Shown here: in pieces, positions 26,277 to 63,379 of the stretch
Position numbering within the stretch: the first letter of the stretch is position 1
How the letters are laid out: every line of letters starts with the position of its first letter
DNA from: Xestospongia bergquistia
Taxonomy: Eukaryota > Porifera > Demospongiae > Haplosclerida > Petrosiidae
Reading direction: 5' to 3'
DNA: 64,000 nucleotides
NCBI GenBank assembly: GCA_963965975.1
Contig: OZ014413.1
Location: 9,760,101 to 9,824,100 of the forward strand
Position numbers and translations under genes: made by a program
Notes under the pieces: model-generated
Told to the model about the DNA's origin: nothing
The model's database searches: none
What the model saw: the letters and a program-made list of their open reading frames with translations, nothing else

Positions 26277-34215
<7,939 letters not shown>

Positions 34216-40991: not shown

Positions 40992-41223
40992 AACAAAAAA
41001 ATACAAATAATAATTAGAAATTTATAAATGCTGATCTAATCAAATCATAAATGAATTTAATTCCTTTTGTATATTCTAAAATTAAACATGGCAACAATTA
41101 GTGCACATTATTATTAATGATTATAAGAAGGTTAAATGAAATCAAAAACAAAAAAATATAGCAAAATGACTGCAATAACAATCAAGTCTATAGAATATCT
41201 CCCTCAATGTAACTGGAAAGGAT

Positions 41224-41697
41224 TCATATTCGTTCATATTTTCCAAAAATATAACAACAATTAGGACAAGTGTGATTGATATCTTTAAAGTCATCAACGA
41301 GAAATGGAATCCAAAAAAAATCAATGGGATTATAAAAAAAAGACTCAAGAGAAAAATAATTCCAACAGCAATCCAAACCATTGTACCTGATTCATAGACA
41401 AGCTCAGTTACCACGTCTTTCTGGCAATTGGGACAACGCAATGGAACAGGTGTCTGTCCAAACTGCCTATTGAACACAACTAGCATTGGTTGGACAAGAT
41501 TGATAATGATACAAATCAATCGGTGGCGGTGGTGATAGCGATCGAGCAGGAGGAGGATAAGGTCGTTCGGTCTGCATCTGTGAAGCTACAGGATAATGTT
41601 GGGAATTCCATTCAGTCTGAATCTGAGCACTGGGAGGAGAGTGAGATGGAGGATAACGCAGAGAGCTAGAGTGAGATGGAGGATAATGCGAAGACAT
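41224..41697 (-). pseudogene. LITAF-domain copy 2, frameshifted
   Basis: Collinear with LITAF 1 and 4 but broken twice. About 8 bp are missing in the region corresponding to NAISPVV (near 41480), and one A is missing from a poly-A run inside the membrane segment (near 41315). The N-terminal and zinc-site parts therefore lie in different frames and the second Cys pair is out of frame. The single-base loss is in a homopolymer and could be a sequencing error. The 8-bp loss could not be explained that way. Confidence 0.8.
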
Positions 41698-41850
41698 TCT
41701 TTCTTGCTCCAAGGATGGTAACGTATGTGACCGCTATAGTTTCGCCTCCAAACGCCCAGTCCCTTACCACTGATAAATTTTTTATACTACGAATTATGAA
41801 TTGTTGCCCACGTGCGAATCTAGGGGAGTGCCTGGGGTGTACATAGTCTC

Positions 41851-41886
41851 GCGTAGCCAGCCCCTCCCTCTCGGGGCTGGCTACGC
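41851..41886. repeat. Perfect 14-bp inverted repeat (hairpin)
   Basis: GCGTAGCCAGCCCC at 41851-41864 and its exact reverse complement at 41873-41886, with an 8-base loop. It is GC-rich in an AT-rich setting, upstream of LITAF copy 2, and absent at the matching position upstream of LITAF 1 and 4, so it looks like a later insertion. Confidence 0.9.
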
Positions 41887-42837
41887 CATTCTATAATAAT
41901 ATTTATGGTCGATTACAAGTCACATCCTGTGCATGGTATATAATTATTACTTTAAGTATATTCATAGCAAATTCTTGCAACCACACCTTACAATTAAAAA
42001 GGTGGGCTATGAATAATAAAATATGAATATTCATTTAAGCTTTAAAATTTAGGTCTGTGCACCCCCTATTTCTCCAACCCTTTCTATATAAAGGTTGAGT
42101 TTTAGGGTTTATTTTGGTATATATGTTCATTTCTATTGGAAAATCATTCTAGTAGCACCACACTGCTAATTTACTACAACTTCCCACAAATTACAGGTGC
42201 ATACAATAAAACAGACTTTATGAAGGAGCAACAGATGCCCTACCCTGGTAGATTAATTAACGAAGTACAAACAGTAAATCGCTACTGTATAATGACACCA
42301 CACTGCTAATATAACTAAAATTGCCCACAAACTACAGCTGCAAATAATAATGTAAATTTTCCAAAGAGGAAGGAACAGACGTCCGGATGTGGTTATTACC
42401 TAATTAATGAGACATCACACAGAATGTCATATATAACTCTAGCAATCATGTCACTACAGGACTTGATCATTAGACTAAGTTTATTACTAACAAGAACAGT
42501 GTTGTGTTTACTACTTATCACTATTACTTCATGTTTGTTATGTAACCAAAATGACCACGGATCAAATAATCAGTTTGTTATTACAGTGATGAATAAATGT
42601 TAATAAACATGATAACAATTAGGAGACATTATTATTTATGATTGTAACAATGTTAAATGAAATTAAATGAAAACCATAGCAAAATGACTGCAATAACAAT
42701 CAAGATAACAATTAGGAGACATTATTTTTTAATGATTGTAACAATGTTAATGAAATCAAAAACAAAAAAACATAGCAGCATGACAGCAATAGCAATTAAG
42801 TCTATAGTATATCTCCCTCAATGTAACTGGACAGGAT
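41887..42837. other. Intergenic, LITAF 2 to LITAF 3
   Basis: AT-rich. About 42060-42220 and 42380-42560 resemble 46795-46930 and 47010-47170 (for example TTGAGTTTTAGG, ATTCTAGTA, CACCACACTG), again duplicated flank. No gene is seen. Confidence 0.55.
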
Positions 42838-43293
42838 TCACAATCGTTTGTATTTTCCAAAAATATAACAACAATTAGGACAAGTGTGATTGATATCTTT
42901 AAAATCATCAACGAGAAATGGAATCCAAAAAAAAATCAATGGAATTATAAAAAAAAGACTCAAGAGAAAAATAATTCCGACAGCAATCCAAACCATTGTA
43001 CCTGATTCATAGACGAGCTCAGTTACCACGTCTTTCTGGCAATTGGGACAACGCAATGGAACAGGTGTTTTTCCAAACTGCCTATTGAACACCACTGGTG
43101 ATATAGCATTGGCTGGACTAGGTTGATAATGGCACAAGTCGATAGGTGATGATGGCGGTCGAGCAGCAGGGGGATAAGGTTGACAATGCTGTTCGGTCTG
43201 AATCTGTGAAGCTGCAGGATAATATTGAGAATACAGTTCAGCCTGTGTCTGAGGAGCAAGAGGAGATTGAGATTGAGGACAATATGTGGCCAT
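42838..43293 (-). CDS. LITAF: LITAF-domain protein 3
   Basis: An intronless gene of 151 residues starting MATYCPQSQS. The tail of about 78 residues is Pro, Tyr and Gln-rich and is followed by the complete LITAF domain: CPNCQKD, a hydrophobic stretch, HTCPNC and IFGKYKR. Its tail differs from those of copies 1 and 4, but the domain is nearly identical to theirs, so either the domain is under strong constraint or it has been homogenised. Predicted zinc-dependent monotopic endosomal membrane protein. The divergence in the tails, which in this family carry the interaction motifs, suggests different partners. Confidence 0.86.
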   Translation of the reverse strand: MATYCPQSQSPLAPQTQAELYSQYYPAASQIQTEQHCQPYPPAARPPSSPIDLCHYQPSPANAISPVVFNRQFGKTPVPLRCPNCQKDVVTELVYESGTMVWIAVGIIFLLSLFFIIPLIFFWIPFLVDDFKDINHTCPNCCYIFGKYKRL

Positions 43294-45415
43294 TATCTCT
43301 TATTCCAAGGGTAAGGCTCAATCTATAATATATCACGTGCACGTTCTGTCTAAATCATTGAAATTTATCTACCATTGATCGGTAAAAATTGATACAAAAG
43401 TTATGAATTATTAATTAATATTATATAAATAGTAAAATTAATTAAATCTGAAATTTCTTACACTCCAAGAAACTTAACTTCTTTTCATTCAAACTGTTCC
43501 AACTATCAATGACTAGTACTTACTATATATCAATCGATCAGAAGAGGTTAATTTAACCAGCTTGTATGTAGCAAAAATTAAACATCATATAGTGTTTTGA
43601 ATTGACTGTTATGTAATATTAGAACTAATATTTTCTTTCTTAATTAGTCATAATAAGATGCTGGTCCAGGGGCTGTCACTATGAATTGATATATAGTACT
43701 CTTTTTATATTGTATATTTGTAGGGCCAGGCTATTTTTTCGGATGGACTTTGATTCAATAGTGAGATGAGAAAAGCAGGGTTAAAATTTTAAGCTCAACC
43801 CACATAATTATTTTTAATTCAATTAATTAACTTCACTTAGTAATTCAACTATGAATAATTAACCTGTATAATTTAAGACAAAATTATAATAAACAGAAAT
43901 CAATGTATTTAGTCAATGATGCCAAAGTACTGATGAGCCAGTTGTTACCAGATCACCACTTTCCAGCATTCTGAGTGTTCTTTAAAACACTTAACCTAAA
44001 CTGTGTAAGTGTTTTCCCTTTGGCTCAGATTGTATTGGCAGATGATATCGAAAATCACTGGGTCTCTTATTTTCTTTGTTTTTCCCTGCTACAGAATAAT
44101 ACCTTACTACAGAGTCTATTCAAACAATCTTAGGTAATTTAGGAAAACACACTTGGTCTTGGCATTGCATGAAATTAATGTGTAAAATAGGAGGATATAA
44201 TAATAGCATGAACCCAATACCTTCAGAACTACATAATATAATACACACTATAGCCAATGAGGACTGGCAGTCTCAACAAAATAAACCTTTAGATCCCTCA
44301 TCTGAGTCAGGAGGTTGGTAATATATAGACAACTACAACAGGGGCCATTGCCACCTAGTTACGTCCACCTTGTCAGAAAAAGAAAGCTATAGAGAAAGAT
44401 TAACACATTAAGGAACTCAAAGAAAGATTTAGCAGTAATGCAATCTCTTTATCAGACTATGTTCCAAGCATGTCTCAACACATTAACTTATAATTGTTTA
44501 AGTACAAACAAGAAGAAAACCAGAAGACACCAGAGGACATGTTTACCACCAGTTTTAAACATTATTAACAATTCATAATGACACACCCAAAGATTGTATT
44601 ACATGAGAGATAACACTACTGTTGAATATAATTTATCCTGTAGCTCTTCTTTCCTTTTCTCAATTTGAAACCTAATATTTAAAATATTCTCTTGACCAGT
44701 AATCAATATAGAATAGATGGATAAATTGCTATATTATTTATTTTACTTCACTTTTAGTCAAATCATATTATAAAAACAATCAATCATATTCAATGTTACT
44801 TCTTGCTACCAGTAGTGAGTCAAAGTAACTTAGTTATATTTCATTCATTTATCCAACCATTCCCTGTTCATCATCATCATCATTGATGTAAATGAAATCA
44901 ATAATGTGCAGTTATTATTAGTTTAATGTGCAGCTGTTTAATGTTGTTAACTTAATAGTTCTAGCTGATGTCATTGTAATGTTAGTTAATACTACATTTC
45001 CACATTTGGTGCAAACAATGATATAGACTTCCTTGAATGTATGTACAGGTGTCCCACATAAGGTGTAAACAGGAAAACATAATGTGGTTATTGCAACTAA
45101 TAAGACATTGCATAGAATCTTATATATAACTCTACAACTACACGTCATTACAGGATTTGATCATTACTAATAAGAATGGTCTCGTGTTTACTTCTTAATA
45201 TCACATCATGTGTTTTGTTCAACCAAAATGACCACAAATCAACCAATATCAATTGTTACAGTGAAGAATAAATGTTAATAAAAATGACAACAATTAGGGC
45301 AAATTATTATTAATGATTTTAAGATGTTAGATAAAGTCAAAAAAAAAACATAGCAGCATGGCAGCAATAGCAATCAAGTCTATAGTATATCTCCCTCAAT
45401 GTAACTGGAAAGGAT
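43294..45415. other. Intergenic, LITAF 3 to LITAF 4
   Basis: Mostly AT-rich. Includes the duplicated block like 37780-37900, a fragment of the 5' end of the glycosyltransferase (44501-44560) with similar upstream DNA to about 44900, and a stretch at 45000-45300 resembling other LITAF flanks. No intact gene is seen. Confidence 0.55.
44501..44560 (-). pseudogene. 5'-end fragment of the glycosyltransferase
   Basis: Aligns with 36711-36770: the start codon, the first ~20 codons and part of the membrane anchor (WCLLVF). Similar upstream flank continues to about 44900. The rest of the gene is absent, so this is a scrap left by the same duplications that made the truncated copy. Confidence 0.7.
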
Positions 45416-45943
45416 TCACATTCGTTTGTATTTTCCAAAAACATAACAACAATTAGGACAAGTGTGAGTGATATCTTTAAAATCATCAACGAGAAATGGA
45501 ATCCAAAAAAAAAATAATGGAATTATCACAAAAAGACTCAAGAGAAAAATAATTCCGACAGCAATCCAAACCATTGTACCTGATTCATAGACGAGCTCAG
45601 TTACCACGTCTTTCTGGCAATTGGGACAACGCAATGGAACAGGTGTCTGTCCAAACTGTCTATTCAACACAACTGGTGATATAGCATTGGTTGGACAAGG
45701 TTGATAACGATACAAGTCAATCGGTGGCGGTGGCGGTGGTGATAGCGATCGAGCAGGAGGAGGATAAGGTTGATAATGCCGTTCGGTCTGCATCTGTGAA
45801 GCTGCAGGATAATGTTGGGAATGCCATTCAGTCTGAATCTGAGCAGTGGGAGGAGAGTGAGATGGAGGATAACTCAGAGAGCTAGAGTGAGATGGAGGAT
45901 AACGCAGAGAGCTAGAGTGAGATGGAGGATAATGCAAAGACAT
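45416..45943 (-). CDS. LITAF: LITAF-domain protein 4
   Basis: An intronless gene of 175 residues from the start MSLHYPPSHS. The frame stays open up to an ATG at 46078, giving 220 residues, and that longer start cannot be excluded. It is closest to LITAF 1. The N-terminal tail contains a tandem repeat, with the unit HSSSLRYPPS/HSSSLSYPPS present twice where copy 1 has one. A longer Pro run follows (PPARSLSPPPPPPID). The LITAF domain is intact, with CPNCQKD, a membrane-inserting stretch and HTCPNC. Predicted role as in LITAF 1: zinc-stabilised attachment to endosomal membranes. Confidence 0.86.
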   Translation of the reverse strand: MSLHYPPSHSSSLRYPPSHSSSLSYPPSHSPPTAQIQTEWHSQHYPAASQMQTERHYQPYPPPARSLSPPPPPPIDLYRYQPCPTNAISPVVLNRQFGQTPVPLRCPNCQKDVVTELVYESGTMVWIAVGIIFLLSLFVIIPLFFFWIPFLVDDFKDITHTCPNCCYVFGKYKRM

Positions 45944-46078
45944 TCTTTCTTGGTCCAATGGCAAGAACGTGCGTGACCGCTGTAGTCTCGCCTCCAAACG
46001 CCCACTTCCTTTTATACTAGGAGTTATGAATTGTTGTCCACGGGCGGATCTAGGGGAGTGCCTGGGGTACACAGACAC

Positions 46079-46439
46079 CGCTTTTATTTTATAATAACAT
46101 TGTCAATCATCAAGTCACATCCTGTGCATGGTATATAATTATTACTTTAAGTACATCACATAATCCCTTCTCCCTTGTCATCATCATTATTGAATCAAAG
46201 TCTCGTCCCAAAAAAATAGCTAAGGCCGGGATGCACGCAATCAAATTGTACATGAATCAATTCAAAAAAAACAATTAATTTTAATAGCAATATGTGCTAA
46301 AGTATTTACTGTGGATAGACTAACATGACCATGTTATCTCGATGGAATAATATGTGGAGTCCACAATAACTACATTAATTTATATAAATATCAATATACA
46401 ATTAATAGACTGTCATTCATCCATCTATTCATTCTTTGT

Positions 46440-46518
<79 letters not shown>

Positions 46519-47351
46519 CTCTCGCTCTCTCTATATCCAAAAATAAGTACAGTAAATCTTGATGATTCTTTCTTTGATGATGAATTAGACAATTATAGTG
46601 AAATCTGGATAATACCTTACTACAGAGTCTATTCCTAATAACTTATAGATGTATTAAATTATAGATGTACTAATCCACACTCCACAGGTCATTTTTTGTG
46701 TGAGCTTTCATTTCAGTAAGAGTTACAGTTTTAGTATCAAGTTTATTAAATTAAATGAGTAGCTTTTGACCATGGTATTAGTATTGGTTTTTATATAAGG
46801 GTTGAGTTTTAGGTTTGTTTTGGTATATATGTCCATTTCTATTAAAAATCATTCTAGTAATAACACCACACTGTTAATTTACTACAGTTGCCCACAAGTT
46901 AAAGGTGCATACAAATCATACTATAGTTTCCCTATTAGGAGACAGTAACACCCCACCTTGTATATTAATTAATAAAGTGGAAATAGTAAATCACTACGTT
47001 GTACATATATAATGTGGTTATTACCTTGAGACAATACACAGTATCTCATGTATAACTTGAGCAATCAACAACTACATGTTACTATAAGACTTGATCATCA
47101 GTTTATTACTAATAGGAATAGTGTGGTATTTACTTCTCAGTGTCACACCATCTATTTTGTGTAACCAAAACGAGCAAGGATAAACCAATAAATTGTTAGT
47201 GAAGAATAAACATGACAACAATTAGGACACGTTATTAATAGTAATTTTAAAAATATTAAATAAAACTAAAAAACAAAAACCATACTGACATGACTGCAAT
47301 AGTAATGAAGTCTATAGGGTATCTCCCCCAATAGATGTAACTGTACAAGAT
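46079..47351. other. Intergenic, LITAF 4 to LITAF 5
   Basis: Contains a CT microsatellite (46439-46530) and a block at about 46795-47230 similar to 42060-42610. The phrase ACCTTACTACAGAGTCTATTC at about 46612 recurs near 44100. No gene is seen. Confidence 0.55.
46439..46530. repeat. CT microsatellite
   Basis: A (CT)n tract with a few TG and CG interruptions near its right end. A 10-bp version of the same site is seen near 38155 in the duplicated flank. Confidence 0.95.
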
Positions 47352-47846
47352 TCATATTCGTTTCTTTTTTCCAAAAATATAACAACAATTAGGACAAATA
47401 TGAATGATATCTTTAAAATCATCAACGAAAAATGGAATCCAAAATAAAAACAATGGAAATATCAAAAAAATACCCAAGAGAAAAATAATTCCAGCAGCAA
47501 TCCAAACCATCGCACCTAATTCGTAGACAATCTCAGTTTCCACATTTTTCTGGCAAATGGGACAACGCAATGGAATTGGTCTTTTTCCAAAATGCCTATT
47601 CAACACAACTGGTGCTGGACAAGGTTGATAATGATACAATCCAGTCTGTGGTGGCGGTGGCGGCGGTTGCAGCAGTACTGGGGGTGCAATAACATTAGCA
47701 ACAGGGGGATAAGATTGATCATGCCGTTCAGTCTGTATTTGTGAAGAGCTTAAAGTATCAACATAACTTGGAGGTTCATTAGAACAAACTTCACTCTGAG
47801 TTTGAGGAGTAGAAGGAGAATGAGATAGAGGTTGATACGAGGTCAT
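47352..47846 (-). CDS. LITAF: LITAF-domain protein 5, with PPSY motif
   Basis: An intronless gene of 164 residues starting MTSYQPLSHS, the most diverged intact member. The N-terminal tail holds EPPSYVDTL, a PPxY motif of the kind that mammalian LITAF uses to bind WW domains of Nedd4/Itch ubiquitin ligases. Copies 1-4 lack a clear PPxY. A Pro run follows, then the LITAF domain with CPICQKN, a hydrophobic stretch, HICPNC and IFGKKKR. The conserved motif and the older sequence suggest that this copy is nearest to the ancestral, ligase-recruiting form. That is inference. Confidence 0.86.
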   Translation of the reverse strand: MTSYQPLSHSPSTPQTQSEVCSNEPPSYVDTLSSSQIQTERHDQSYPPVANVIAPPVLLQPPPPPPQTGLYHYQPCPAPVVLNRHFGKRPIPLRCPICQKNVETEIVYELGAMVWIAAGIIFLLGIFLIFPLFLFWIPFFVDDFKDIIHICPNCCYIFGKKKRI

Positions 47847-48352
47847 TCTCTCTTAAAGGGCTAAAGTCAATCTCCTGTACGACTACAATAACATGTCACG
47901 TGCCTTCTAAAATCCTTGAAATTTTACATCATTGACCGGTAAAACTTTTATACGATGAGTTATGAATTATCCTTAATAATTAATTAACATTGATAATAAA
48001 ATAATTAAACCTGGTACGCCCAAATCCGGCAGTATAACGCAAAAAAGAACCTTAGCTCTTTTACATTCAACAACTATATATATATATATATATGTATGAA
48101 TCAGAAGAGCCTCCTCCCACTATATAGTTACTACACATCCAAAAGATTAGGCTAAGTGATTCAAATTTGAGATACTTTATTTATAAATTTGATAAAATTA
48201 ATTATATAGCGATTGGAAACTTCAGCCTCATTTTTTAATTATTTTACCTCAAACTTCAATTCTAACAACATATCTATCAACTGGTTCTCTGAAAGGGTAT
48301 GTGTGTAGCATATAGGGATGGTGACAGGTTTTACACACATGCCCACTAAAGA
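47847..48352. other. Intergenic, secreted EGF gene to LITAF 5
   Basis: AT-rich with a short TA run near 48078. The first part resembles sequence upstream of LITAF 3 (43320-43500: CACGTGC, TTGAAATTT, GACCGGTAAAA, GAGTTATGAATTAT), so the promoter side of LITAF 3 and 5 is shared. No gene is seen. Confidence 0.5.
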
Positions 48353-50509: not shown

Positions 50510-53500
50510 ATGGCAAAGAAACAAGTTGATGCTAAACTCTTGATATCCTTTCTGAGTCAGGCTCAACTAGGTAAGATTGTTAGACAATTGTCTTCTGTAT
50601 TATAATCTTATGAGTAATGAACATATCAGTCATCATCATTAATATGTGACCTTCTCATCAGATATCACTCATTTAAGTGATATATTAGAAGTCTTGAACA
50701 TGTTTCCATATCGAAGATGGTTCAAGTTAGGTCTGTTGTTGGGTATACTACAGCCTACACTAGCAAAGATTGAAGCAGATCATCATAATGATGTAGCTCG
50801 ATGTCTTCAGGAGTGTATCACTTGTTGGTTGAGAAGAGTTGACAAGGTGAATGAGAGGGGGAGACCATCATGGGATGTACTTGCTAGTGCTTTGAAGAAG
50901 ATGGAAGAAAACTTTGTTGCTGAAAACATTATACAGACAGGTATTATATGACACACTATATATAGCTGGACTTATATATTGAAAATAATGATAATTTAAT
51001 AGTAAAAGGAGAAATGCAGTCTGCTGCACAAATTCTGATTTATCCTGTCCAAATGTCACAGCTGTTATATAGTGAAAGATGTATTAGTGAAGTGATCCTT
51101 GATGAAGTGGAGACACTAGAGGTCTCTGTTGATAATAAGAGAACAACTCTCTTGTCTGCTGTATGTACTGCAGTATCTTCAGATCACAAGAATATCAAAG
51201 TACTAGCTAAAGTGTTGTCTAAATTTGAAGAGACAAGAGAATTATCAGATAAACTACTCAACCAGTATAGTTAGTACTCTTATACCCATAATATGATAGT
51301 TATATTTGTAATTTCTTTTTTTAATGATCAGCTCAAACATTTCCAGAAGATCTGGAGACATCAATTTCATTAGCTAGTGCTCCTTATAATGTAGTAACAG
51401 GTCCCAGTGATCAGATCAGTCCTGAACAGTGTGCTAGTTATATACTTTGTTATCACTATGCCACTCTATCCCAGTCTCTTCATGATCCTGTTGGTGTGGG
51501 GCAACTCCTTCATTTTGAGGACTCAATAATAATATCAGAGCAAACACTAACTAATTTAGTCTCTACAGGACAATCTGAGTCAGAGAGAAGAATAGTCTTG
51601 TTGAGAGCAGTACGTTATGCTGTCCGTACTAAATATAACAACCTGGAGGTGTTTGCCAGTGTACTGCTAAAGTTTTCTATTAATGTGCCATTAGCTAATG
51701 CTATTTTGAAAGACTACAGTAAGTTAATAGAAAGGTAATTATAGTTTTATGAGTATATTAAATATAGAGAAAGAATTTAAAATGATCACAAAAGAGGAAT
51801 CATTACCAGGAAGTACTATGTATAATAAAGTGATTACAGATCAAAGTAAGTTGTTAAAATCAAATAATCTTAACAGTATTTGTATCTACTGTTTAGCAAC
51901 TATTGAATTATTGATTCCTTTGGATATGGAGCCTACCTTTAGATCAATTAGAAAAGAGTTTGCAAAAGCAGTTTTTAGCATTCGTTCCTCTATCACTAAA
52001 AGCCAACTATCAATACAAGAAGTTAAAAACTTGCTTTATAGTTTTCCTGACCTGAAGCCAGAGTTAGCTGGTGCTAAAACAATTGACGATATCCTGAATC
52101 TGGTGCATGACAAATGCACTGTCATTGATGTAAGTTACATGGAAGCAATTGTTGAACAGTTCAATATCGAAGAAGCTAAGATACACATTAAAACATACAA
52201 GGATATCGTTGAAAAGTTCTCACAGGATGTAGCACTTGAACTGTGTCTTGAGGAAAGTTTTCCAGTCTCAAAAGTTCCCTTTCCTTTGAAATATGAGACA
52301 GCCAAGTTTGTCCTTGATTGGGATCCTACTGACAGCTATACTATTAATGATATCAGAAATATTCTAGCAGTTTCATTAAAAAAATTATCCAAGAGGATAA
52401 AAATAGTTGTCATCAAAAAAGACAACTCCATCACTGTGACGTGTACCTTTCCTTTGCATCTACTTGGTCCACTCATTTCCACTGCTCAAGAGACTATTGA
52501 ACTTATAAAGAAGAGAGGATTAATTCGACTCTCTATTGGTCCTTGTATCATTTGGGATATCAACAGTAGAGATGAGGTATATATAAATTTATACTACAAA
52601 CAGTATCCATGTGTTTATAATGTAGGAGATGAAGTCTTTGGTAATGCAGATAAAGGAAAACCAGAAAAAATTTGATAAACAATTGGAGACACAATATGCA
52701 ATTAGCAGGAGAAAGACACTGGAAATTGAAGATTTGCGAGCTAAACTCACACAGCAAGAAGGTAACAGGACTGTAATTGTAAAAATCACCCTTTAAATAA
52801 AGAAGGCACAGTAAGACATTGACTTTGAAACTTGCATAAGATATCAAGAGGCTAGCAGCAAAGAGGCAAGCTAGTTAGAAGCTTCCAAGTCTGAAAAGTC
52901 ACATGATCATTAATATAATACTTGTATAAATCATTGAGTGTACATTCGTAATTTGAGTATATGTTGTTAAATATTATTAATTTGTTTTAAATTGTCACAT
53001 GCAACAATACAAACTAATAGTATAGAAATGCATATATTACTACATAGCTCTAAATAACTGTAGGATTGTTTGCATGCCAGGCAGTAAATGTATTTACACT
53101 ATTTCTATATGTTATATTGTATTTGTTACACTATTATGTTTTGTAATATTAGGTAATAAAGTGGGGTTCATGTCAGAGACACAAATGTCAGAATTAAAGG
53201 AGAAAGAAGAGGAGATTGATGTATTAAAATTAGCCCTTAAAGAAAAAGAAAGTAAGGAAACATGAATTGTCACAATATAGCATGTAATATTATATAGTGG
53301 ATTATTTAGACTACTGTAAATCAAGAAAAGTTAATGTCCAAAATATTTAATGTTTTAGAAAAATGAACACATTGGCGAACGCTTAATTTAGCGAAAAATC
53401 AAGTTATTATAACTGTTAGTGAGGATCATCATCTTTGGGGGTTATGGAGTCTAGAGTTCAATCTTTCTCAAATCCAGTACCTACAGTGTCACTATTTGCC

Positions 53501-56500
53501 CTGAGTTTAGATATAGCCAAAATAAGCCTGTTAGCATGCAGTGGTTTTACAATACTAGTTTTTAAGTCAATTTTCACTTCTTCCAGATGGGTGTCCTCAT
53601 CTAGTGTTCGTTTTACTTCATTTGAATACCATCTTGTAAAAGATTTTCATATATGCCTTGAATTCTTGATTCATGGCTGATATTGAGAGGCTGCAACTCT
53701 TCAGTACATCCTGCTGCTGGAATGAAAACTTGGTGAATATGGTTCTCACAAAGTTTTCTCAAAACAGATTTGCATGTTCTGTACTGAACTCTCTGATATG
53801 GGATGACCAAGTCCTTGAGAGAATTTATTAATAGCAGCTTTGTTTCCATTGGCTCTGGCATACTTGGCTATTTTTGCACGTGTCTGGTCATCATAAGTGA
53901 AGTAGTGTCCCCTCTTTCTTCTTTTAATATCTTGCTCAGTTATTTCCTTCTCCACTTGTCTGTTAATAGCCTTGATGGATTGATCTTCAGTGGGCAATAG
54001 TGGAGAAGCCCTTTGTTACTCACAGAGTTCAACCATTTGAGAAGAGACATACTAGTGCTATAGCCAGCTTTGAACATCGATAGAGTGATCAATTTTCCTT
54101 GTGGTAACTGAGAGCGTGCACATGATCTGTGTCCTGAATGTTAATTAAGTTAGTGACTTTTAAATACCTATACCTAAACACTATCTTAGCTAAACCAACA
54201 CTAATATTTCTCAATTTACAGTATGCAGGGTTAAATAGCAGTGGTTTTACAAATTAATTTACATTTTTTTACAAGTTTTTTTTACCACCACATCCACAAA
54301 TTATATTGCATTCACACCTTAATATGAAGTTCATAAACTGTCATAATGTATCATTTCAAACATTACAAAGAGTTCATTAAAAATATTTTAAGTATATAGT
54401 GTATTGGGTAATATTAAGGTATAATATATTTTATAGAAACTGTTCAAGAAATATTAGAAGACAAACAAAATGATGATTTGAAGTTGAGTAGTAAACTTGA
54501 AGTACTTGAAATTACAATTAATCAGAAGACAATGGAGATAGATGATTTAAAATCTATTCTTGGAGACAAAGAAGGTATATAACATTACAAGTACTATAGT
54601 ATAAAGTATATCCTATTTTAGTTGAGTTACATTTATTGAAGAAGAAATCAGAACAGCAACAAGTAGAGATCAAAGAATTAAAATCTATTCTTCAAGGAAA
54701 GGAAGGTATGTAATATTATAATATTCCTCATACTAGTTCTCTCATGTCACTATGTATAAAACTATTATAGTATATAGTACATGTAGTATTACCATATATG
54801 GTAGTATTTTATATTGAATATAACTCTCCTAGCTTCAGAGAAGACATTAAGGTCAAAAGTAATAGAGAGAGAAGAAGAAATAAAGTCTTTACAGGAAATG
54901 ATCGTGTCACTTACCTCAAAATTAAAAGAGAGGGAAATAGATACAAATATTTCAGAGAAGAGCATAAAAGGTACCTGAGATATTAATATGATTATGTAAC
55001 TACTTATAGTAGGCAAAACTGTTTTAACATCTGATATTGGTGACAATACTCCCCTACCAGCTGAACCACTTCATGTATCCCTTAAAACAAAAACTAGCCA
55101 AGAAGAGTCCATTACTAAAAGTAAATACACTACATATATGTGATGATATTTTATACTATTTGCTTTATAGTGTCAAAGATAAATGTTACTGATGATGTAA
55201 TAACAGAATCAGATGTTAAAGAGAAGTTCCCATATCATGTACAACCTGTACCTTCTACTAGTAAAGGTAAATTTCATACAAATGTAGCTGTATTACATTT
55301 TAAACCCCTTAATGAAATTTTTGGCAAATTAATTTAAAAGTAATGCAATCAACTCTTTCAATGATGTTTATGTAAGTGGTTACTATACCTTTGTTGTCAC
55401 ACCTATTTAATACAAATTGGACATACTCACTGAACTTCATTTCATATTATCAATAGATCTAAAGTAGTTTTACAATGAAACATTTAATGTTTTATTTAGT
55501 AGAGTCAGAGATGAAAGTTTTGTCAAAAGAAACAAAAGATGACGTACCAATAGAACCAGAACTAGAGGTTAAAGAGAAGCCATTAGGTTTTTTACAGTCT
55601 CTATTTACAAAAAAAAGTAAGTAAATGTTATTATTTTGACTGATATATTTAGTTTAATATACTCTGCAAAACACAACACTCTATTTATAGATAATGACCA
55701 ATAAATTTATTAAATGAAACCTAAATATAAGAATACTATATATTATTGTTAGTATATATAGAATAGTAGTGAGATCTATACTGAGGAGACCATCTTTATT
55801 TGTTAGAGTCACAGCCAATGAAAGATGACATTCCAATAGAACAAGAGGATAAGGAGAAGTCATCCAGTCTTCTACAACCTCTAGAAGGTAGTATACAAGT
55901 TATTATTTTAGTTAACTCCACCATTGTGTTAAAATATACAGCATCAAAAATGCTCACAGCCTTTCATCTTATCCTCAGCCTACCATATCCCATTGTGAAA
56001 AGTAGTCTTAGTATCTTTGCTTGATTTTCTTGGGATAAGAAATGATATGTTCACTGGTATTGTTGTGTCTAATGAAATTGCTGTTCAAATGTTGGAAAAT
56101 GAATATGTTATATTATTATGTGATATCTAAAACTAGAGTTATTTTTTTAAGGAACAGCACCTGGATAAATGTTGTAATTGCAATGTCCCATGAAAATCAA
56201 GCTAAAAAAAACATCAGACTATTTTACTATGGGGTGCGGTATCCTTGGAACAAGATTAAATATTCCTTGATCTTGGAAGCTACACCCCTTTAATGTAGGA
56301 ATTTGAGGTGTGGCTGAACATACTATACATTTATGGTCTTGTCCCCACCTACCACTGGAGTATGAGTATCTGGTACATTTATTCAATTTTTTTGCATTGA
56401 GATTATGACTCAATGTAGTTAGACAGCCAATCATTATTATTTTCTTTATTCCATCTCTTTCCTAGTCATGTTATAACATATACATCATATATAGTAAATT

Positions 56501-58026
56501 ACTGAATTAAATAGTTGATCATATATTGTCATAGCAGTGAAGTAATTTGATTGGCTATATAGCAAATTCTTCTACCCTTTCTCATAGAGTGGGTGGCTGA
56601 TGATGAGACTAACATATTTGTAGCTAACAAACTAGTTTGTAATTTTAGTACATTTCATATCTTTCATGATTCCAGGTACTTGTTAAAATACAATTATGAT
56701 AACAATACGAAGATGTTGAATTGAAACAGAAATCTAATAGAGATTAACCAGTTTACCAACACTGCATACATTACAAGTTATAATAACAACACTGCATACA
56801 TTACAAGTTATAATAACAACACTGCATACATTACAAGTTATAATACTAACACTGCATACATTACAAGTTATAATAACAACACTGCATACATTACAAGTTA
56901 TAATACTAACACTGCATACATTACAAGTTATAATACTAACACTGCATACATTACAAGTTATAATACTAACACTGCATACATTACAAGTTATAATAACAAC
57001 ACTGCATGTATTACAAGTTATAATACCAACATTACAAGCTATGCACAAGACCTTGTGGAATAGGTATGGTTTCAAATGCTATAAATATTTTTTGTTATTA
57101 TTATAATAAGCAAACAATTTTTTTGACTACTTGACATCAAATACACACAATTTGCAGACTTGTTTCAAGCCTCAGTTAGATATTAGTTAAATATTACCAT
57201 GTCATTGTTACTGTAATTTATCATTAGCCTAGTATAGATATGTATAGTTGTAAGAAAAAGAGCAGCAAAGTTAAGTAGCTCCATGCAGCCACTTCATCTA
57301 CAGCCACTGTTATTTTCTATATATTGTTGTCATAGCAACCTAACACATTAATGGCATTGTCCTCTTCATTAGGCCTTAATAATCATGGTTAAGCATGTTA
57401 GGGTGTGTGTATAGCTATTGTTATGTATGTCAAATATTATATAGTAACTATGTTTTATTATAGGAGACACTGTAAGCGTTAAGTGGACTAGTTATAGTGT
57501 TACACTCACTTCATCTACTGTGGCAGAATGTAAAGAGGTGGTACGTCGATTAAAGAGACAACAACACACAACATGGAGTATTGAACTCTACTCGTTAACT
57601 CCTCAAAGTTTATTAACAATATTAACTGATATTAACGAATGTCAAGTGAGGAGTCTTGATATAGATAACACTCATTTTGATAGTAACTGTATCAGTCAAC
57701 TATCACAAGTAGTAACTTATAACAAAACAATGGAGATCCTATATCTTACCTCCTCACCTCTCTTACCAGATACTTACCACTTACTAACAACAGCACTAAT
57801 TAATAATAAAGTAATGAAGAGATTATACTTGTATGATGACAATAACATTAGTGATAAAGATATACCTCATCTCTGTCATCTTATTGATAATAACAAAACA
57901 TTGCAAGTGCTATACCTTACTAGCTGTCCTAATATTACTAAATTTGGTGAACAACAATTACAAAATGTTTGTGTTAATAATAATAGTTTGAATGGTTTGT
58001 TTGTTAATGGCAATAGACTCCGTTAA
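50510..58026 (+). CDS. Death domain - CARD-like - coiled coil - LRR protein, gene 1
   Basis: Sixteen exons: 50510-50570, 50662-50940, 51003-51269, 51332-51718, 51768-51845, 51897-52576, 52626-52761, 53153-53251, 54437-54574, 54622-54705, 54833-54970, 55010-55120, 55171-55266, 55500-55616, 55807-55887, 57464-58026, giving 1104 residues in one continuous frame. Residues 21-113 are a death domain (FPYRRWFKLGLLLGILQPTL; ending near SWDVLASALKKM). About 114-202 and 203-331 are two helical modules that resemble each other and CARDs. About 358-584 is an unassigned alpha/beta domain (FVLDWDPTD, GLIRLSIGPCIIWD). About 585-782 is Glu/Lys-rich coiled coil, 783-917 an acidic linker, and 918-1104 holds NLR-type leucine-rich repeats (MEILYLTSSPLL, LQVLYLTSCPNI). 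No NACHT or kinase domain is present. A cytosolic signalling scaffold or sensor in immunity or cell death is inferred from the domains. The weakest junctions are exon 5/6, where the intron is open in frame, and the final splice into the LRR exon. Confidence 0.72.
53440..54120 (-). mobile_element. Decayed pogo/Tigger-like DNA transposase fragment
   Basis: Inside intron 8 of death-domain gene 1, on the minus strand. One frame has a lysine/arginine-rich start (IKRRKRGHYFTYDDQTRAKI) leading into KYARANGNKAAINKFSQ, the helix-turn-helix region seen in pogo-like DDE transposases. A second frame has FIPAAGCTEELQPLNIS, the conserved stretch near the last acidic residue of the DDE domain. The catalytic core between them is missing and the frames do not agree, so it is an internally deleted relic. 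No terminal repeats were identified. Confidence 0.65.
56761..57030. repeat. 30-bp minisatellite, nine copies
   Basis: The unit ACTGCATACATTACAAGTTA plus TAATAACAAC (or TAATACTAAC) is repeated nine times without gaps in intron 15 of death-domain gene 1. The copies alternate between two variants at position 25-26. The minus strand is open through it (period 10 residues), but there is no start context or flanking gene. Confidence 0.95.
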
Positions 58027-60568: not shown

Positions 60569-63379
60569 ATGGCGAAGAAACAAATTGATGTGAAGCGGCT
60601 GATATCTATTCTGAGTCAGGCTCAACTAGGTAAATAGCTAGATAATTGTCTTTTGTATTATATTCCTACGAGTATTGACTGCTACAGTCATACACGTATC
60701 GTTGAGGTATTTTTTTTAAATTTTGTGACCTCATTGTCAGATATAACTCACTTGAGTGATGTCTTGGAAATCTTGAACAAGCATATGTTTCCATATCGAA
60801 GATGGTTTGAGTTAGGTCTGTTGTTGGGTATACTACAGCCTACACTAGCAAAGATTGAAGTGGATAACCGCTATGATATAGTTCGATGTCTTCAGGAATG
60901 TTTAACTTTTTGGCTGAGAAGAGTTGACAAGGTAAATGAGAATGGAAGACCATCATGGGATGTACTAGCTAGTGTTTTGAAGAAAATGGAAGAAAACTTT
61001 GTTGCTGAAAACATTACACAGACAGGTATGATATAAAAACTATGCATAATTTCTATTAATTTGACTTACATTTTGAAAATAACAATCAATAATTTAATAG
61101 TAAACGGAGAAATGCAGTCTGCTGCACAAGTTCTGATCTACCCTGTCCAAATGTCACAGCTGTTATATAGTGAGAGATGTATCACTGAAGCGATCCTTGA
61201 TGAAGTGGAGACACTAGAGGTCTCTGTTGATAATAAGAGAACAAATCTCTTGTCTGCTGTACGTACTGCAGCGTCTTCAGATCACAAGAATATCAAAGTG
61301 CTAGCTAAAGTGTTGTCTAAATTTGAAGAGACAAGAGAATTAGCAGATAAACTACTCAACCAGTATAGTGAGTACTACACATAATATGATAACTATTTAA
61401 TACATAAACTATTAATCCTTTTTATATATCAGCTCAAACATTTCTAGAAGACCAGGAAACATCATTATTAGTTGGTGCTCCTTGCAATATAATAAAAGGT
61501 CCCAGTGATCAGATTAGTCCTGAACAATGTGCTAGTGATATTCTCTGTTGTCACTATGCCACTCTATCACAGTCTCTTCATGATCCCGTTGGTGTCGGAC
61601 GACTCCTCCATTTTGAGGATTCAATAATAATATCAGAACAAACACTAACTAATTTAGAATCTACAGGACAAACTGAGTCAGAGAGAAGAATAGTCTTGTT
61701 GAGAGCAGTACGTTATGCTGTCCGTACCAAATATAACAACTTGGAGGTGTTTACCAGTGTACTATTAAAGTTTTCTATCAATGTTCCATTAGCTAATGCT
61801 ATTTTGAAAGACTTTAGTAAGTTACTTGTAGGTAGTATGGTGTACCTTAAGCGTATTATTAACTGTGCGAACTTATTTTAGTGATTTTAGCAACTACTGC
61901 AATATTCGCTAAATTTGTATACTCTAAAATTATACTCATGTAATTAGGTCAAATTGGGTATAACTCAGGAGAATTTAATTGAAGTGTGCAGATATTTTAA
62001 AATAGACACATTATAGTACAGTGGAACCTCCCTTAAAGGACTCTCTGAATAGTCTAAACTTCTATAATATGGACCAATTTTCTGGTCCAACTGGAACTGC
62101 CTTACATACAGTACTGAATACTGATGTGCCCTCTGTAATGTGGAACCTTTCTATTCCATACAAAGTTGTTTTAATATGTCTAGATCCATTGTAATGATAC
62201 CTCTTACAACAGATATGGCATCTCAATATTCAGGACACTATCTTAATCCAAATGGGTTTAGAATAGAGAGGTTCCACTGTGTACACAATTAATAGTTGAT
62301 TTAACATATAAGTATTTTTTTGTATTAAAGAGAAAGTTTTTGAGCTGAAACCAAATGCAGAAACATTAGTTAGCACTGCAAGTTCTAATAATTCCACTAC
62401 AGATCAACGTAAGTACATAGTAGTAAGAATGGAGTGATATAAACTGCTATAATGTACAATATATAATATAATAAAAATATTATATTATATTATAGTATAA
62501 TTTATAATTATATAGTTACAACTGAAGTACTAATTCCTAAAAGTATGAAACCAACTTTTAAGTCAATTAGGAAAGAGTTTGCAAAGGCCATTTTCAAAAT
62601 TCGTTCTTCTATTGCTAAAAGCCAACCATCTCTACAAGAAGTTAAAAGCTTGCTTTACAGTTTTCCTGACCTGAAGCCAGAGTTAGCTGGTGCTAAAACA
62701 ATTGATGATATCCTGAATCTGGTGCATGACAAATGTACATTGATAGATATCACTTATCTAGAAGCTATTGTAGAGCAGTTTGACATTGAAGAAGCAAAGC
62801 CACACATTGAAGCATACAAGGAAATTGTTGAACATTTCTCACAAGAAGTAGCAGTTGAACTATGTCTCAATGAAAGCTTTTTAGTATCAAAAATCCCTTG
62901 TCTTCTCAAATGTGAGACAGCAAAATTTGTCCTTGACTGGGATCCTACTGATGACTACACACTGAAAGATATTGAAGATATTTTAGCTGTCTCTTTAAAA
63001 AAACTAGCCAAAAGAGTCAAAATAGTTGTTATTAAAGAAGGTAACTCAATCACTGTTATCTGTACCTTTCCACACACTCTACTTGGTCCACTCATTGCCA
63101 TTGCTCAGGAGACAATTGAACTAGTGAAGAAGAGAGGATTAATTCGACTTTCTATTGGTCCTTGTATCATTTGGGATATCAACAGTAAAGATCAGGTATA
63201 TATAAACTTTTACTACAACAGTATCAATGTGCTATTGATATAGGAAATGAAATCTTTGACAAGAGAGATAAAAGAGAACCAGAAAACATTTGAGAAGCAA
63301 TTGGAGACACAGAAGACAATTAGTAGGAGAAAGACACTGGAAATTGAAGATTTGAGAACTAAACTCACACAGCAAGAAG
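60569..63379 (+). CDS. Death domain - CARD-like protein, gene 2 (runs off window)
   Basis: Exons 60569-60629, 60741-61025, 61101-61367, 61433-61816, 62331-62408, 62516-63195 and 63244-63379 correspond one to one with exons 1-7 of gene 1. Lengths are identical except exon 2 (two codons longer) and exon 4 (one codon shorter), and the intron phases are the same. The death domain, both CARD-like modules, the unassigned ~225-residue domain (FVLDWDPTD, GLIRLSIGPCIIWD) and the first coiled-coil exon are intact. The last exon ends in a phase-1 donor, so the gene must continue beyond the window, presumably into further coiled-coil and LRR exons. Intron 4 carries a MITE. The match of exon structure is the main support for both gene models. 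Confidence 0.75.
62019..62279. mobile_element. Tc1/pogo-like MITE in death-domain gene 2
   Basis: A 261-bp element with 12-bp inverted ends CAGTGGAACCTC and GAGGTTCCACTG. A TA dinucleotide precedes the left end directly and a TA follows within 2 bp of the right end. The ends resemble Tigger/pogo-type termini. It contains no coding sequence. Gene 1 lacks it at the equivalent intron, which is only 49 bp there, so the insertion postdates the gene duplication. Confidence 0.78.

Follow-up and report, generated by a model that had tools for sequence, protein, structure and literature searches.

A probable coiled-coil and leucine-rich repeat variant of a sponge Death-like/TRADD-N gene family with diversifying selection on its repeat face

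Introduction

Intracellular receptors that carry leucine-rich repeats (LRRs) are usually thought to need a NACHT or NB-ARC switch. Among sponges, NLRs of Amphimedon were reportedly described by Yuen et al. in 2014. Passages of another paper deal with sponge NLRs in Dysidea (PMC12909245), and DAmFRET, a polymerisation readout, has been applied to death folds of sponges (PMC13012725). A further family was described by Kaur et al. (2021), who, in the parts of their text used here, report 357 proteins with a TRADD-N domain of the NCOA6 clade in Amphimedon (PMC8195603). These proteins mostly consist of one to three Death-like domains, TRADD-N and a variable C-terminus, the last commonly being ankyrin repeats or SH3 followed by LRRs. 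Here we describe gene A, found in a 64,000-nucleotide stretch of the Xestospongia bergquistia genome (hereafter the window; C3:9760101-9824100, C3 being contig OZ014413.1). From N- to C-terminus, its predicted protein has a Death domain, a pair of CARD-like modules homologous to each other, the product of a 226-residue exon, a probable coiled coil, a linker and LRRs. The gene A subfamily is a coiled coil/LRR variant of the known sponge family, and the positions of its LRRs predicted to face the ligand are under diversifying selection, which is the signature of a recognition surface.

The gene structure, the order of parts, the copy number, the linkage and face selection of the LRR exon, the constraint on the signalling exons and the exchange of segments were all computed here. 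Genome searches covered the whole 146-Mb assembly (21 contigs) and scored at most 150 candidates; family sizes are therefore lower bounds, and absence among the listed copies does not mean that there is none. The ten closest copies were ranked by exon 6, with gene A and its tandem paralog, gene B, included.

Results

Selection on the LRR face

Non-synonymous (dN) and synonymous (dS) divergence was calculated for ten close genes, of which eight were used for exon 9 and nine for the LRR exon. The signalling exons are constrained, with mean dN/mean dS of 0.19 (Death exon), 0.38 (exons 3 and 4) and 0.26 (exon 6); exons 7 and 9 gave 0.25 and 0.49. For the LRR exon the value is 0.83, and dN exceeds dS in 15 of 36 pairs. 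Selection on exon 6, which had been suspected from its low DNA similarity (with exon 4 it is among the least similar exons), was ruled out by its ratio.

In known LRR proteins, the x residues of the x-L-x-L-x strands face the ligand. Eighteen such positions were chosen from the gene A motif after a first protein alignment, and 20 copies fetched later served as a check. The 36 copies compared come from the closer part of the 150 listed LRR matches and are 69-80% identical to gene A. The ratio of non-synonymous to synonymous differences per site (pN/pS) at the x positions was 1.94 in the first 16 copies, 2.28 in the later 20 and 2.11 in all 36, against 0.40, 0.17 and 0.29 at core residues and 0.67, 0.88 and 0.76 outside the x set. 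A tree-based count at the x positions gave 465.2 non-synonymous and 25.8 synonymous changes, a ratio of 3.59 (bootstrap 2.62-5.51) against 0.79 elsewhere, on a tree that segment exchange disturbs and from copy pairs that are not independent. All 36 copies have different 18-residue x strings, and none of 10000 random column sets reached the observed pN in the first 16 copies.

Two controls were weaker. When random sets were judged by the ratio, the observed value was reached by 143 of 5000 (first 16 copies), 426 of 5000 (later 20) and 135 of 5000 (all 36), which is probably an effect of the few synonymous changes in such sets. The x set shifted by two columns still gave 1.36 and 1.30, and shifts of 3 and 5 gave 1.42 and 1.47, all below 1.94.

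The LRR exon as the probable last exon of gene A

In nine of the ten closest copies, an LRR exon follows downstream on the same strand within 10 kb, at distances of 1.7 to 5.4 kb; for the tenth, L013, none is among the matches listed. The same arrangement with a listed LRR exon was found for 66 of the 150 listed exon-6 copies, while 35 have one upstream, as expected from tandem arrays, and opposite-strand LRR exons within 10 kb are listed for none of the 150. A splice acceptor precedes the exon in all 17 copies inspected. Gene B uses the same site, ahead of 19 residues that are duplicated in tandem where its LRR exon begins (L009 4717-4776). The first Met of the exon in gene A is residue 89. 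Because of this linkage, the orientation, the conserved acceptor and the position of the first Met, the LRR exon very probably belongs to gene A as its last exon.

There is evidence on the other side. No listed exon 6 stands upstream of 50 of the 70 closest LRR copies, among the matches listed. Of three examined among these 50, L031 shows the complete module order, its exon 6 being divergent, L032 has a weak Death match only, and L033 has no signalling exon in the 9.3 kb upstream of its LRR. Part of the LRR copies may thus stand elsewhere or alone. A family scan of 21 LRR exons found LRR_1 in seven, LRR_4 in six and LRR_6 in five (best E 7.5e-9), while the match of gene A itself reached only E 0.065. 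A sharing of the LRR exon with NACHT genes was looked for and not found: none of 95 NACHT matches has a listed LRR copy downstream within 10 kb.

Exon chain of gene A

Splice signals were used to reassemble the exon chain, which is supported by sequence. It has 16 exons with GT-AG introns and stays in a single frame of 1094 codons, with ATG at 50510 and TAA ending at 58026 (Table 1). The first-pass annotation had also given one continuous frame, which is confirmed, with 1104 codons; across the 12 listed of 256 alternative chains the count varies from 1091 to 1096. As a prediction, the model is well supported. All introns are in phase 1 with the exception of the one separating exons 6 and 7; this makes exons 2-5 and 8-15 symmetrical units which could be exchanged with the frame intact. 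Exon 5 had no DNA-similarity match in the 21 other loci compared, and the gene B model has a different exon at its place. At 1576 bases, the last intron exceeds all others of the model in length. It contains a tandem repeat of about 30 bases (window about 56770-57030), which could be read as repeated NTAYITSYN but is intronic in the model. No clear transmembrane segment was found in the protein, the highest 19-residue hydropathy being 1.57.

Table 1. Predicted exons of gene A and position of its tandem paralog (window coordinates)
Feature	Position	Strand	Remark
Exon 1, start codon	50510..50570	+	blastn match in 8 of 9 other close copies; none in L018
Exon 2, Death domain	50662..50940	+	Pfam PF00531, E 6e-5; above cut-off when scanned alone
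Exon 3, Death-fold-like (CARD-like) module 1	51003..51269	+	homologous to exon 4
Exon 4, Death-fold-like (CARD-like) module 2	51332..51718	+	homologous to exon 3
Exon 5, short linker exon, least certain	51795..51845	+	open, GT-AG, phase 1 at both ends
Exon 6, helical part and TRADD-N-like part	51897..52576	+	
Exons 7-11, coiled coil	52626-52761, 53153-53251, 54437-54574, 54622-54705, 54833-54970	+	
Exons 12-15, proline-/charge-rich linker	55010-55120, 55171-55266, 55503-55616, 55807-55887	+	
Exon 16, LRR (concave face variable) and stop codon	57464..58026	+	
Gene B, tandem paralog, first seven exons	60569..63379	+	followed outside the window by coiled coil and LRR exon (C3:9827777-9828331)

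Signalling end and coiled coil

Scanned alone, exon 2 scored 23.5 bits against PF00531 (cut-off 22.6), and 18.7 bits within the whole protein. For exons 3-4, hmmscan of 31 members gave scattered weak matches only (best E 0.01), and a PDB-sequence profile search with exon 6 and exons 3-4 reached a best E of 0.77, so that neither was assigned by family searches. A fourth death fold in the helical half of exon 6 was considered too; profile comparison found no relation between this half and the CARD-like modules or the Death exon, and no such fold is claimed. NACHT had no match in the 1094-residue protein at E up to 1, while the same genome has 95 NACHT matches, many of them inside long open frames. 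Thus, the combination seen in the first-pass annotation, a death-fold signalling end and LRRs without NACHT, is borne out by the Death domain, the linked LRR exon and the negative NACHT search.

The same holds for the coiled coil placed between these ends. The heptad score of residues 576-776, a home-made measure and not a published predictor, was not reached by any of 500 shuffles, whereas 154 of 500 shuffles scored as high as the linker, a control without heptad signal. A similar E-I-x-x-L-(K/R) motif closes each of exons 7-10, and all ten close copies have the first coiled-coil exon. The linker has 12 Pro in 131 residues. Oligomerisation via the coiled coil is plausible.

Exon 6 and TRADD-N

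An AF2 model of exon 6 from two sequences (pLDDT 71.7) has seven helices followed by beta-alpha-beta-beta-alpha-beta, giving a helical part at about residues 14-118 and a TRADD-N-like part at about 131-223 of the 226. In this model the latter has the RRM (RNA recognition motif)-like fold expected of the TRADD-N superfamily. In gene A and its close copies exon 6 sits between a Death-like N-terminus and a variable C-terminus. The Pfam family PF13820 (NCOA6_TRADD-N) has four matches genome-wide at E up to 1, all in relatives of exon 6 (exon-6 profile E 4e-61 or better), and is the best Pfam match in these four (E 0.004-0.01, 16.1-17.4 bits, below the cut-off of 22.5). According to the passages of PMC8195603 used here, where PDB 1F3V is named for TRADD-N, the turn linking strands 2 and 3 has a conserved Ser in the NCOA6 clade, usually preceded by a tiny residue. 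In exon 6 the Ser at this turn is Ser 177, with which strand 3 starts; it is invariant in 25 of 25 sequences.

Several results count against TRADD-N. The residue before Ser 177 is Asn in nearly all sequences and not the tiny one. At E up to 1, PF13820 matches neither gene A nor any of the 25 aligned members, hmmscan of which gave scattered weak matches only (best E 0.0065). Foldseek with exon 6 returned nothing at E 0.001 or better, its top matches being eIF2-alpha, prephenate dehydrogenase and ferredoxin-like folds. No TRADD chain is among the 50 VIA-align rows listed, which does not exclude a TRADD match. Taken together, exon 6 is best read, with weak Pfam support, as a helical part plus TRADD-N. 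The domain had been left unassigned at first; structure prediction gave it two parts, and its second part appears TRADD-N-like and so of a family already known.

Family, copies and exchange of segments

Exon 6 and the LRR exon each have at least 150 matches in the genome, which provides the paralogs that the first-pass annotation proposed to search for, and the Death exon is present in all ten closest copies. The tandem repetition of the first seven exons was likewise confirmed: gene B shares 511 of about 620 residues with gene A there. Downstream of gene B is a third, partial copy (L010 6687-7729; C3:9839687-9840729), of which exons 9, 10, 14 and 15 only were matched in 10 kb. C4 holds 81 of the 150 best exon-6 matches, and the 10.5-11.1 Mb region of C3 many of the closest LRR copies.

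The closest partner of gene A differs between exons: it is L017 for exons 2 and 3, gene B for exons 4 and 6, L012 for exon 7 and L014 for exon 16. Exon 3 and its counterpart in L017, at a distance of about 285 kb, agree at 267 of 267 bases, and the two exons 6 are only 75-76% identical. Similarity extends from about 50700 to 51500 across two introns, reaches into exon 4 and then falls off sharply. The simplest reading is gene conversion or unequal crossing-over among the copies. L017 itself may be damaged in its Death exon, which has an in-frame stop close to its beginning.

At C3:1379706 and C4:411323-413012, exon 6 has SH3 and then an LRR exon downstream of it. With these copies the exon-6 family fits the NCOA6-clade TRADD-N expansion of Amphimedon, as far as passages of PMC8195603 describe it. 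The architecture is therefore a variant within a described expansion, and the proposal that it represents an undescribed immune or cell-death system finds no support in this form, with the weak Pfam support noted above.

Other features of the window

Several tandem open frames at 41142-47852 (-) encode CPNCQK (or CPICQK), a hydrophobic stretch and CPNCCYxFGK, and resemble LITAF-type proteins. An SH3_1 match at 29825-29944 (C3:9789925-9790044; E 3.5e-10) suggests that another gene of the window carries SH3.

Discussion

Gene A probably encodes an intracellular recognition receptor of the Death-like/TRADD-N family, with TRADD-N as a switch, assembly through the coil and output through the Death and CARD-like modules. 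The concave face of the LRRs would bind a variable ligand, microbial or self. TRADD-N, lying between the signalling and sensing ends, could act as the switch; that it passes on the release is what Kaur et al. suggest for the family in the passages used here (PMC8195603). The coiled coil would bring copies together and supply the proximity that the NACHT ring gives in NLRs, and the Death and CARD-like modules might then nucleate a signalling assembly that leads to immune signalling or cell death. The identity of TRADD-N, the switch, the oligomerisation, the class of ligand and the output are what we infer, and all steps past ligand binding are of this kind. The sensor role suggested by the first-pass annotation gains support as that of a probable immune sensor from the conserved LRR linkage and the diversifying selection on the LRR face.

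This reading depends on the LRR exon and its variation, both of which could be explained otherwise. A separate gene for the LRR exon, with the Death/TRADD-N/coiled-coil gene stopping before it and the 1.6-kb last intron being intergenic, would suit the length of this intron, the repeat inside it, the many closest LRR copies with no listed exon 6 upstream and the case of L033. The first Met at residue 89, the acceptor in 17 of 17 copies and the linkage and orientation kept in nine of ten close copies, with no opposite-strand LRR exon listed for any of the 150 exon-6 copies, make it very unlikely. Relaxed constraint in many degenerating copies, in place of selection, would likewise account for the overall LRR ratio of 0.83 and for 0.76-0.88 outside the x positions, and there are internal stops in 7 of the 150 listed LRR copies and the stop in L017. 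Since relaxation cannot yield a ratio well above 1 at the x positions with the core at 0.17-0.40, we regard it as very unlikely.

Other explanations accept the gene and its selection and change the role. The same machinery might serve allorecognition or symbiont discrimination, the ligand being self, another sponge or a resident bacterium; the high copy number, the 36 different x strings and the exchanged segments would agree with it, but, with no clear transmembrane segment, contact with the cells of another individual would be indirect, so that we find it unlikely. A role in NLR or TNF-receptor-type signalling as an adaptor or a negative regulator (decoy), with the LRRs binding variable host partners, seems rather improbable. 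Gene A has no ATPase, TRADD itself is an adaptor (PMC8195603, in part), and the 95 NACHT matches could be partners; diversifying selection over 36 paralogs fits a recognition surface, whereas a constant partner would constrain the LRRs.

If gene A is a recognition receptor, an early-branching animal would have met the need for a switch with TRADD-N and a coiled-coil linker, and the published TRADD-N expansion gains a testable role, with residues expected to touch the ligand and natural paralogs for specificity. A broader possibility, which we hold tentatively and at somewhat less than even weight, is a second, NACHT-independent repertoire beside the NLRs: dozens of germline-diversified intracellular LRR receptors with constant Death/CARD-like/TRADD-N exons, traded segments and a coiled coil replacing the ATP-driven ring. 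The family itself is known; what is new is the pattern of selection on the LRRs and the mosaic make-up of the signalling exons. Neither LRR-face selection nor segment exchange appears in the passages of PMC8195603 used here. Its main text, apart from Figure 4D and the source data, has "coiled" once, on RNA polymerase, and "exon" never. No follow-up work on these sponge TRADD-N proteins was found in the open-licence literature searched.

Comparison with known systems

The closest system is the NCOA6-clade TRADD-N expansion of Amphimedon, which has the same order of Death-like domains, TRADD-N and a variable C-terminus as the gene A family; in the text of PMC8195603, as far as used here, SH3 precedes the LRRs, where gene A has a coiled coil and linker. 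TRADD also combines a Death-superfamily domain with TRADD-N in one protein (PMC8195603, in part), but its Death domain is C-terminal, and gene A has the reverse order together with extra modules, the coiled coil and LRRs. Animal NLRs, those of sponges included, share with gene A a Death or CARD end, C-terminal LRRs, a large family and a probable role as intracellular sensors; they have NACHT, which gene A lacks, and the genome's NACHT matches have no listed LRR copy of this family behind them. In lamprey variable lymphocyte receptors and plant NLRs, diversity is concentrated on the concave face of the LRRs. The lamprey receptors are assembled somatically, whereas the diversity of the gene A family is spread over germline copies.
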